Translations under genes and position numbers: made by a program
Shown here: piece by piece, positions 12,441 through 38,090 of the stretch
How the letters are laid out: each line of letters starts with the position of its first letter
How positions within the stretch are numbered: the first letter of the stretch is position 1
Source: Pseudomonas sp. NC02
Lineage (GTDB): Bacteria > Pseudomonadota > Gammaproteobacteria > Pseudomonadales > Pseudomonadaceae
Direction: 5' to 3'
Length of the DNA stretch: 64,000 nucleotides
NCBI RefSeq assembly: GCF_002874965.1
Contig: NZ_CP025624.1
Location: forward strand, 5,704,001 to 5,768,000
The notes under the pieces: model-generated
What the model saw: the letters and a program-made list of their open reading frames with translations, nothing else
Told to the model about the DNA's origin: nothing
The model's database searches: none

Positions 12441-12546
12441 ATGTGGGAGCTGGCTTTTGTGGGAGTCGGGCTTGCCCGCGATGCAGGCACCTCGGTATGT
12501 CAGTTACACCGAGGTGATGCTATCGCAGGCAAGCCAGCTCCCACAT
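12441..12546. repeat. REPIN palindrome between moaC and the PhoH gene
   Basis: The arms ATGTGGGAGCTGGCTT and AAGCCAGCTCCCACAT face each other across about 75 bp. The centre includes an ACCTCGGTAT/ACACCGAGGT dyad and a partial extra copy of the arm (GTGGGAGTCGGGCTTGC). It is closely related to the element at 32239-32328. Confidence 0.8.
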
Positions 12547-16517: not shown

Positions 16518-16613
16518 AAATGTGGGAGCGGGCTTGCTCGCGAAAGCGGTGGTTCAGTCGATGCCTTTATTGCCTGACACGCCGCTTTCGCGAGCAAGCC
16601 CGCTCCCACATTT
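16518..16613. repeat. REPIN with 32-bp perfect arms
   Basis: The arms at 16518-16549 and 16582-16613 are exact reverse complements (core TGTGGGAGCGGGCTTGC, then TCGCGAAAGCGG). This is the best-preserved REPIN of the window. It is placed 18 bp after the yaaA stop and marks the left border of the algD control region. Confidence 0.9.
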
Positions 16614-20287: not shown

Positions 20288-21457
20288 ATGAATAGCCCAG
20301 TAAACGCCAACGTTGTCCACGAATCCGAAGCCCAGCGCCAACACGCCCGGGTCAAAATCCCGGCCAAGCTGCGCTTCTTCGGCGCCGATCAAACACCGAT
20401 GGAAGTGCGGGTGATCGACCTGTCCGCCGGCGGCCTGGCCTTCAACGCCCCGCAGCAGCCGCTGAAAGTCGGCGATGTGCACAAGGGTCGCTTGCAATTC
20501 GTGATCGACAACCTGGGCCTGGCGATGGACGTCGAGCTGCAGATTCGCTCCTACGATCGCCAGACCGGCCGCACCGGTTGCCAGTTCCAGAACCTCGATG
20601 CACAAGACATCTCCACCCTGCGCCACCTGATCACCTCGCACCTGGCCGGTGACATCGTGACCATGGGTGACGTGCTGGCAACCCTGCAACGCGACAACTT
20701 CACCAAGGCGCGCAAGGTCAAGGACGGCGGCAGCAACATGAGCGTCGGTGGCCGCCTGCGGGCGGTGACTTTCAGCCTCGGGATCTTCGTGGTGGGCCTG
20801 GCGGCATTCGGCTTCGTGGTCAAATCGGTGTACGGCATGTACTTCGTCAGCCACGCCACCTCCGGCCTGGTGAGCGTGCCCGGGATGAACGTGACCATGC
20901 CCCGCGATGGCACCGTGCAAAGCCTGATCAAAGGCGATGCGGTCGCCGCCAAAGGCGCGCCATTGGCAACCTTCAGCACCAGCATGCTCGACGTACTCAA
21001 GGGCCATCTGGACGAAGACCAGCTGCAACCGGCCAAGGTCGAAGAGCTGTTCGGCAAGCAAATGACCGGCACCCTCACCTCCCCTTGCGACTGCGTCGTG
21101 GCCCAGCAACTGGTCGCCGACGGTCAGTACGCCAGCAAGGGCGACGTGATCTTCCAACTGGTGCCACGCGGCAGCCAGGCCAACGTTGATGCGCGCTTCT
21201 CCTATCGCCAGTTTGCCGACGTACGCCCGGGCACCCGCGTGAACTTCCAGGTAGCGGATGAAGAGCAGGTACGCACCGGCACCATCGTCAGCAGCACCAG
21301 CCTGAACAGCAGCGAAATGTCCTCCGACATCCGCGTGCAGATCAAACCCGACGCCCCGCTGGACAGCACCTACGCCGGTCGCCCGGTTGAAGTGACCAGC
21401 GATCGCGGCCCGTCCCTGAACTGGCTGATCGACAAAGCCATGGCCAACGGTCTGTAA
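20288..21457 (+). CDS. alg44: c-di-GMP-binding alginate co-polymerase Alg44
   Basis: This 389-residue protein has an N-terminal cytoplasmic PilZ domain. The c-di-GMP ligands Arg17 and Arg21 (RQHAR) and Asp44/Ser46 (DLSAGG) fall at the same numbers as in P. aeruginosa. One membrane helix follows (about residues 158-180), then a periplasmic HlyD-like part. Binding of c-di-GMP switches on Alg8-dependent polymerisation. It lies 36 bp after alg8 and before algK. Any cyclase raising local c-di-GMP would act here. Confidence 0.96.
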   Translation: MNSPVNANVVHESEAQRQHARVKIPAKLRFFGADQTPMEVRVIDLSAGGLAFNAPQQPLKVGDVHKGRLQFVIDNLGLAMDVELQIRSYDRQTGRTGCQFQNLDAQDISTLRHLITSHLAGDIVTMGDVLATLQRDNFTKARKVKDGGSNMSVGGRLRAVTFSLGIFVVGLAAFGFVVKSVYGMYFVSHATSGLVSVPGMNVTMPRDGTVQSLIKGDAVAAKGAPLATFSTSMLDVLKGHLDEDQLQPAKVEELFGKQMTGTLTSPCDCVVAQQLVADGQYASKGDVIFQLVPRGSQANVDARFSYRQFADVRPGTRVNFQVADEEQVRTGTIVSSTSLNSSEMSSDIRVQIKPDAPLDSTYAGRPVEVTSDRGPSLNWLIDKAMANGL

Positions 21458-21475
21458 GCAGAGGACATGCCTGTG

Positions 21476-22972
21476 ATGACTCTCTCAAAAACACCGCAAT
21501 CCCTGTGGGAGCGGGCTTGCTCGCGAAAGCAGTGTGTCAGCCAACACATGCATCAACTGACAGTGCCCCTTCGCGAGCAAGCCCGCTCCCACATGGGAAC
21601 TGCGGCGTTGCTGGCTGTTGCGGTCAGCCTCGCCGGTTGCGCCGGCCTGCCCGACCAACGCCTGGCCAATGAAGCGCTGAAACGTGGCGACACCGTCACT
21701 GCCCAGCAGAACTACCAGCAGCTCGCGGATTTGGGCTACAGCGAGGCCCAAGTGGGCCTGGCGGATATCCAGGTCGGCACCCGCGACCCCGAGCAAATCA
21801 AGCAGGCCGAAGCGACGTACCGCGCGGCTGCCGATACCTCGCCCCGTGCCCAGGCACGCCTGGGCCGCCTGCTGGTGGCCAAGCCCGGCGCGACCGAAGC
21901 CGAACACCATGAAGCCGAAGGCCTGCTGAAAAAGGCCTTTGCCAATGGCGAAGGCAACACCCTGATCCCGCTGGCAATGCTCTACCTGCAATACCCGCAC
22001 AGTTTCCCGAACATCAACGCCCAGCAGCAGATCAGCAAATGGCGCGCCTCGGGTTACCCGGAAGCCGGTCTCGCCCAGGTGCTGCTGTATCGCACCCAGG
22101 ACACCTACGACCAGCACCTGGATGAAGTGGAAAGCATCTGCAAGGCCGCACTGAACACCACCGATATCTGCTACGTCGAGTTGGCCACGGTCTACCAGAA
22201 AAAAGCCGAGCCGGAAAAACAGGCCGACCTGCTCAAGCAGATGGAAGCCGGCTACAGCCGCGGCACCGTCACCGCCCAACGGGTCGACAGCGTGGCTCGT
22301 GTACTGGGTGATGCAAGCCTGGGCAAGACCGACGAAAAAACCGCCCAGGCCCTGCTGGAAAAAATCGCCCCCGGCTACCCGGCCTCCTGGGTCAGCCTGG
22401 CACAACTGCTCTACGACTTCCCGGAACTGGGTGACGTCGACCAGATGATGAAGTACCTCGACAACGGCCGCGCCGCCGACCAGCCCCGCGCCGAACTGTT
22501 GCTGGGCAAGCTCTACTACGAAGGCAAGTGGGTCCCGGCTGACGCCAAGGCCGCCGAAGAACACTTCCAGAAAGCCGTCGGCCGCGAAGTCGCCGCCGAC
22601 TACTACCTCGGCCAGATCTACCGCCGTGGCTACCTGGGCAAGGTCTATTCGCAAAAGGCCCTGGACCATCTGTTGACCGCTGCGCGCAACGGCCAGAACA
22701 GCGCCGACTTCGCGATCGCCCAGCTGTTTTCCCAAGGCAAGGGCACCAAGCCCGACCCGCTTAACGCCTATGTCTTCAGCCAGTTGGCCAAGGCCCAGGA
22801 CACGCCGGAAGCCAACGACCTGGCGACCCAGCTCGAAGCGCCGCTGACCCCGGAACAACGCGCCGAAGGCCAACGCCTGGTGCAACAGGAGCTGGCCGTG
22901 CGCGGCACCCTGGCCCAAAGCACGCTGCAATTGCACGCCCTGCAAGAAGAAGACGGCGAGGAATCCCTATGA
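21476..22972 (+). CDS. algK: Alginate secretion lipoprotein AlgK with REPIN-derived leader
   Basis: This outer-membrane lipoprotein scaffold (498 residues from 21476) consists of TPR/Sel1-like helical repeats, for example [20 protein letters not shown] and [15 protein letters not shown]. It helps place AlgE and bridges to Alg44 and AlgX. The lipobox VSLAGCAG gives the mature N-terminal Cys. The start is uncertain: ATG 21467 is too close to GAGGA, while GTG 21473 or ATG 21476 fit better. A complete 90-bp REPIN (21504-21593) interrupts the 5' coding end in frame, adding about 29 residues between the n-region [10 protein letters not shown] and the hydrophobic core [15 protein letters not shown]. 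Initiation at the ATG at 21593, at the repeat edge, would give a short signal lacking a positive charge and a Shine-Dalgarno. The stop overlaps the algE ATG. Confidence 0.93.
21504..21593. repeat. REPIN inside the algK signal-peptide coding region
   Basis: The perfect 24-bp arms TGTGGGAGCGGGCTTGCTCG.. (21504-21527) and their complement (21570-21593) bound a 90-bp element, exactly 30 codons. It has no in-frame stop in the algK frame. Its sequence class is the same as the REPINs at 16518 and 37996. Confidence 0.9.
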
Positions 22973-37995: not shown

Positions 37996-38090
37996 AAATG
38001 TGGGAGCGGGCTTGCTCGCGAATGCGGTGGATCAGTCGATATTTTCGTTGACTGACACACTGCCTTCGCGAGCAAGCACGCTCCCACATT
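37996..38090. repeat. REPIN between the DUF4440-like and efflux genes
   Basis: AATGTGGGAGCGGGCTTGCT... faces ...AGCAAGCACGCTCCCACATT, with inner TCGCGAA/TTCGCGA. It is in the same class as 16518-16613. Its right end reaches the stop codon of the minus-strand fusion protein at 38090. Confidence 0.85.

Follow-up and report, generated by a model that had tools for sequence, protein, structure and literature searches.

A REPIN within the algK lipoprotein signal sequence of Pseudomonas sp. NC02, at a recurrently occupied site predicted to be translated

Pseudomonas sp. NC02 carries a complete REPIN within the lipoprotein signal sequence of algK, and comparison with its relatives predicts that the element is translated. 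It lies in a 64,000-nucleotide window (the whole stretch of DNA analysed) and was noted in a preliminary description made from that sequence; the algK REPIN is real and, as judged from the comparative evidence, both wider in distribution and older than was then supposed. The stretch of algK from the start codon to the hydrophobic core appears to be a slot that has been filled again and again by REP/REPIN-type palindromes in the sampled fluorescens- and putida-like Pseudomonas. Comparison of leaders establishes the position of the slot, a frame that is open across insert types and species, the absence of downstream starts from roughly one leader in two, and a peptide that is not conserved; for one form of the insert it also establishes that the loop at this site is shared by species whose arms differ, the change being mostly to the REP type of the host genome. 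We consider it probable that this is a tolerated, translated REPIN slot at a junction lacking intergenic room, with its frame kept by selection on AlgK and its sequence rewritten in place, probably through gene conversion.

The algK REPIN and its genomic setting

The features of the window are as follows.

12442-12545, strand not given: REPIN with another REP nested in its left arm
16521..16610, forward strand: REPIN of the same arm type as the algK copy, intergenic, between yaaA and algD
20288..21457, forward strand: alg44 (PilZ and HlyD domains), with its stop 15 nt 5′ of GTG 21473
21460..21464, forward strand: Shine-Dalgarno-like AGAGG, 8 nt 5′ of GTG 21473
21467..22972, forward strand: algK open reading frame; likely start GTG 21473, alternatives ATG 21467 and ATG 21476
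21504..21593, forward strand: the algK REPIN, 90 nt, 30 codons in frame
21504..21527, forward strand: left REP arm, 24 nt, TGTGGGAGCGGGCTTGCTCGCGAA; its 23-mer occurs 806 times in the genome
21570..21593, reverse strand: right REP arm, the exact reverse complement of the left arm TGTGGGAGCGGGCTTGCTCGCGAA
21594..21640, forward strand: hydrophobic core and lipobox LAGC, with the Cys codon at 21638-21640
37999-38088, strand not given: a further REPIN

In the element a spacer separates two REPs of inverse orientation, and both the sequence and the RNA fold allow a single hairpin (the window's algK leader mRNA folds at -113.3 kcal/mol, z = -7.4). GTGGGAG followed by CGGGCTTGCTCGCG makes a GTGG/GTAG-type tag with an inner palindrome, comparable to the entries in Table 1 of PMC3116915. 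No stop interrupts the open reading frame across the 90 nt, and the element first described, of 90 bp with perfect 24-bp arms and 30 open codons, is confirmed at 21504-21593. Its placement in the n-region of the AlgK lipoprotein signal is likewise borne out: algK matches NCBIfam NF038194 with 806.6 bits against a cut-off of 700, and the alignment to the AlgK structure 3E4B begins at residue 59, directly after Cys58. GTG 21473 is the likelier start because AGAGG is 8 nt upstream of it (the spacing is 2 nt to ATG 21467 and 11 nt to ATG 21476) and because the algK start of relatives aligns with it; the signal would then be 55 residues, in agreement with the earlier estimate of about 55. Since the alg44 stop is only 15 nt before this GTG, there is almost no intergenic room at the alg44-algK junction. 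The neighbours are alg44 and algE, both from their domains, and algG, and algD, algL and algA are consistent with family matches; names of the remaining alg genes are assigned from the known alg gene order. To our knowledge AlgK has not been reported as essential for growth. Alginate secretion requires AlgK in P. aeruginosa (PMC9734138).

The repeat is more than a chance match: the 23-mer of the algK arm is abundant in the genome, and the same pattern read backwards has no copy. There are 564 candidate element-like places, and among the 40 that were scored, which include the algK copy, the others are up to 92% identical to the window's element. None of these 39 other copies is convincingly inside a gene by a rough test of open frame and codon score, with four cases judged by eye, which fits the earlier statement that REPINs are normally extragenic; by this sample the algK copy is an exception in a mainly extragenic population. 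The REPINs of L242, L244 and L267, with long open frames, were considered as coding and rejected, as their translations look like shadow frames by eye and codon score. A length divisible by three was dropped as a main argument because 27/38 measured copies elsewhere in the genome are also 90 nt, and because one algK element is 104 nt by the edge rule used and yet has an open frame. The genome contains three Y1_Tnp (RAYT-type) genes, two of which adjoin REPs of arm types other than that of algK; a simple motif scan found the 806-copy arm beside none of the three (L239, L240, L241). A plasmid search returned a single record with an 8% match. Across species, REPINs occur at recurring offsets in the alg locus, which on the gene map of the window correspond to the region 5′ of algD, the algL-algI gap and the algF-algA gap (L185, L186, L188, L190, L191, L199, L202, L204, L206, L211, L215, L216, L218 and others).

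Occupation and turnover of the slot in relatives

A search for relatives gave a match in 32 of 57 genomes; of the best 30 places, which were taken as loci, 27 allowed classification, and an insert was present in 18 and absent in 9. The full comparison used 230 loci (L009-L238) from sequence searches and retrieved stretches, 221 of them with both an AlgK motif and an alg44 end (one lacked the motif and eight a recognised alg44 end), and these yield 194 distinct Pseudomonas algK leaders. An insert is present between the start codon and the lipobox in 148, absent in 42 (class 'none'), and four leaders are short, although these counts are not genus prevalence, as the sample is biased to genomes near the window or near one putida-like query. 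Leader lengths range from 62 to 236 nt; the 148 insert-bearing leaders are all at least 130 nt, and the four leaders below this length that fall outside class 'none' were kept out of the frame test; three of the short leaders (L096, L104, L196) look empty of a REP doublet and L066 retains a remnant.

The 148 inserts were divided into classes named from motifs chosen in the analysis: W_B (58), V (24), W_A (20, including the window), putP (11), put2 (11), a reverse type (6), CGEG (6), nested V (6) and other (6), of which put2 and other are heterogeneous, with some members not established as REPs. Of the inserts, 140 contain a REP tag heptamer, with at least two tags in 124, and 8 contain none; an inverted-repeat score of at least 12 is reached by 131 inserts (17 score lower) versus 0/42 'none' leaders, two of which (L154, L170) contain a lone REP tag. 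In L045, L050, L054, L055, L077 and L078 a different palindromic insert sits in the same slot and codes for C/RGEGACSRSTAQ, with PSGSKLPRHK in 5/6. Five loci named P. viridiflava or P. syringae (L043, L051, L057, L080, L085) group by algK with the fluorescens subgroup, and these records are possibly mislabelled.

On a tree built from the mature part of algK (193/194 rows, with 45/190 inner branches strongly supported), the insert class requires at least 72 changes compared with 119 for shuffled labels (0/200 as low), such that classes are clustered, and insert presence or absence alone requires at least 29. The 14 closest pairs of different class have flank identities of 0.88-1.0, and close sisters with and without an insert include L052/L146, L040/L041 and L010/L067. 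The nearest approach to a filled and an empty site is the pair L090 and L104, in which a 63-nt REP doublet is present or absent between matching flanks; L110/L096 is a second such pair with a less clean alignment. Alignment of the algK 5′ ends of relatives, proposed in the preliminary description, gave leaders both with and without an insert, but among those listed none was seen to combine the window's flanks with an empty site. Nor did these relatives show the same 30 codons in a diverged, non-repeat form.

One repeat-free leader, MSALR, is nearly identical in 16 leaders (e.g. L052, L184) dispersed over the algK tree. The terminal 60 nt of alg44 track this allele (0.961 within the class versus 0.891 otherwise), and the stretch 300-600 nt upstream shows no difference (0.911 versus 0.912). 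As the near-identical allele travels with the end of alg44, this speaks for recombination between species at the alg44-algK junction. It is possible, if not what we would expect, that the whole distribution arose in this manner, homologous recombination of the junction having carried leader alleles with and without the repeat from species to species, and new insertions being rare. The number of class changes on the algK tree agrees with such exchange, which is compatible with a tolerated and rewritten slot, and both may act together. However, the same flank signal is weak for the repeat forms (0.936-0.954 versus 0.923-0.933), such that their wide horizontal spread was set aside; the 87-nt form described below is more diverged than its flanks, and strong support is limited to few inner branches of the tree. 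Recombination would moreover explain how inserts spread, but not what was found for the frame and the arms.

At exactly 87 nt, the W_B form aligns without gaps in 51/51 leaders. The long loci supply 17 algK copies, and for 15 of them another genome contains an algK relative with an identity of at least 0.86, the exceptions being L201 (0.72) and L202 (0.78), and the 12 with a second copy in their own locus are 0.56-0.89 identical to that copy. In L202 alone the copy from the same genome (0.89) is closer than other algK copies are (0.78), which suggests replacement of the whole element. Among the 40 of 915 candidates scored in genome G121, the closest other copy of the W_B element has 80% identity, or 82% over a part. 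In L013, L064 and L204 the right arm carries an in-frame insertion of net 15 nt, at one position common to all three, and L064 and L204 do not have identical inserted bases.

W_B arm types change at least 20 times (left) and at least 32 times (right) on the algK tree, and paired changes on supported branches amount to only four pairs, too few for a test. By exact 23-mer counts, which include algK itself, the arm type found in algK outnumbers each of the four other types counted in 9 of 10 genomes picked by algK arm type (G000, 806 copies; G029, 170; G033, 1217; G235, 144; G204, 262; G409, 1255; G129, 175; G121, 1342; G326, 419), with G011 as the exception (160 copies, second to another type at 498). 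The W_B loop is present in nine of the ten, and for five of the ten genomes other arms of the same locus were already known before the count. In the 17 loci the own-genome arm match is 0.444 versus 0.183 with shuffled genomes (0/5000). In the 87-nt form, then, the aligned loop is orthologous at the site while the arms change type, and the plain reading of arms that tend to follow the genome and a loop that follows the site would be copying between REPs in place; the arm matching may in part reflect shared ancestry.

The retention of palindromes could also mean that the hairpin itself is selected, as a coding mRNA structure that tunes AlgK dosage, which we think unlikely. All 152 leaders outside the 'none' class, including the four short ones, fold below -40 kcal/mol, and class medians are -76.6 to -117.3 versus -23.2 for 'none', although longer leaders fold lower anyway. 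REPINs recur at other alg junctions too, and arm mismatches in algK copies (mean 0.69, n=16) are no more than in other same-locus copies (0.88, n=26). Nonetheless, 42/194 leaders lack an insert altogether, including close sisters of insert-bearing species, and within the 87-nt form only 23/51 arm pairs match over 24 nt whereas 28/51 have 1-7 mismatches. Arms that track the REP type of the genome are, in addition, expected from REP copying alone.

The reading frame across the insert

The algK frame is open in all 148 inserts, compared with 55 and 50 for the +1 and +2 frames (the reverse frames are open in 91, 52 and 50), although the leaders are related and do not represent 148 independent trials; when each 75% cluster is represented by a single leader, the open counts are 24/24 for the algK frame and 11 and 7 for the other forward frames. 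An in-frame ATG, GTG or TTG positioned 14-28 codons before the lipobox Cys is absent in 72/148 leaders, and translation should therefore run through the insert. A Shine-Dalgarno-like motif is found at an internal start in 3/148 and at the upstream start in 145/148. An in-frame stop in L155 is upstream of its own ATG. Among the leaders, neither the frame in which the repeats are read nor their order is constant, and two arm insertions, net 15 nt, leave the frame intact.

The encoded peptide appears to be free to vary. Divergence of the 87-nt form at codon positions 1, 2 and 3 is 0.205, 0.174 and 0.165, and as there is no third-position excess nothing shows that the peptide matters; the proposal of a conserved functional domain was rejected. 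A protein search with residues 8-52 gave one match among nine candidates, which is AlgK by sequence, and a Pfam scan of that match returned nothing. With the frame open throughout and no third-position excess, it appears that the frame of the insert is kept and its content is free. The insert is within a real gene and in frame, as a translated intragenic REP would be.

The repeat could alternatively be an untranslated leader or mRNA element with algK starting downstream, the long open reading frame being an annotation artefact, an explanation that has been offered generally for P. putida ORFs with REPs at their 5′ ends (PMC3733652). The window has an ATG at the repeat edge and a strong hairpin, and the preliminary description raised re-initiation at this ATG, but the scarcity of internal starts and of Shine-Dalgarno-like motifs at them disfavours it, and a signal beginning there would be without its charged n-region. 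Together with the open frame, these observations make an untranslated leader quite improbable. An insertion into a working lipoprotein signal, as first supposed, that was recent and private to this strain is scarcely credible in spite of the perfect arms and the near copies in the genome, as 148/194 leaders bear some insert and the window's own KQxVSQH form is found in 14 distinct leaders (the window's included), with L044 and L121 each one base apart from the window over the 183-nt leader and likewise over the 90-nt element; the complete in-frame REPIN in the n-region stands, and its privacy to this strain does not.

In the tolerated, translated slot that we favour, the ribosome would initiate at the GTG or ATG following the Shine-Dalgarno sequence that adjoins the alg44 stop, open the hairpin, and translate the repeat as approximately 20-50 additional n-region residues. 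The hydrophobic core and lipobox would route AlgK into the lipoprotein pathway, and signal peptidase II would cut off the repeat-coded peptide, such that export presumably continues to work. Gene conversion or other copying between REPs would rewrite the slot, and frame-breaking variants would be purged by selection on AlgK.

Known intragenic repeats and the meaning of the algK slot

REPINs, as REP doublets, and their association with RAYTs were described by Bertels and Rainey in 2011 (PMC3116915), and the algK element has in common with these two inverted REPs per unit, a hairpin, hundreds of copies, and Pseudomonas fluorescens as host. That paper treats REPs of extragenic space, whereas the algK copy is, by comparison, read as protein, and inserts at the same site recur across species. 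Closer parallels are the intragenic GTAG/CGTC REPs of 'REP-decorated' proteins, with REP dimers that code for 20-30 residues within genes, and recB of two Xanthomonas, where different REPs are found at about the same site (PMC3733652); the algK case resembles these both in its in-gene REP dimers and in the same-site difference seen in recB. The same paper judges most REPs at P. putida 5′ ends as probably non-coding, whereas for algK the cross-species frame test favours coding, and the site is a signal peptide with arm turnover. An enterobacterial RU-2 repeat is reported inside the predicted signal peptide of YPO1552 (PMC2759123), which represents another repeat family and, as described there, a single gene case without a frame test across insert types. 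Rickettsia palindromic elements also lie inside genes, and N-terminal RPE-1 cases are reported as expressed in vivo (cited in PMC3733652). What they have in common with algK is the presence of palindromes within genes. Their sequences differ from the algK inserts, and they are spread over numerous genes and positions, whereas the algK inserts turn over within a single slot. Gene conversion, the mechanism we infer for algK, was reportedly proposed for REP evolution by Higgins et al. in 1988; here it is the arms of an orthologous copy that differ between genomes. No title or abstract opening in the literature searched reports the algK site, with supplements (algK may be in Additional file 3 of PMC3733652) and most subscription journals being outside that scope. 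The algK slot would extend the known intragenic REPs to recurrent inserts at one signal-peptide site with turnover of the arms.

REPINs have mostly been regarded as elements of extragenic space, and where REPs overlap gene 5′ ends, misannotated starts have been taken as the cause; at this one multi-species site the comparison favours translation, and it suggests that annotation of the AlgK start needs care in species with insert-bearing leaders. An orthologous REPIN with genome-like arms makes homogenisation of REPs in place, whether by conversion or transposition, directly testable, and the slot suggests how far the n-region of a lipoprotein signal can be tolerant of added sequence. A further, doubtful proposition is that the repeat population and the host gene are jointly selected, with host selection keeping the frame, REP copying printing the current REP type on the signal peptide, and the retained hairpin setting AlgK dosage at a junction that is too narrow to accommodate an intergenic element. 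If true, the signal peptide of an export protein would evolve in concert with a population of non-coding repeats.
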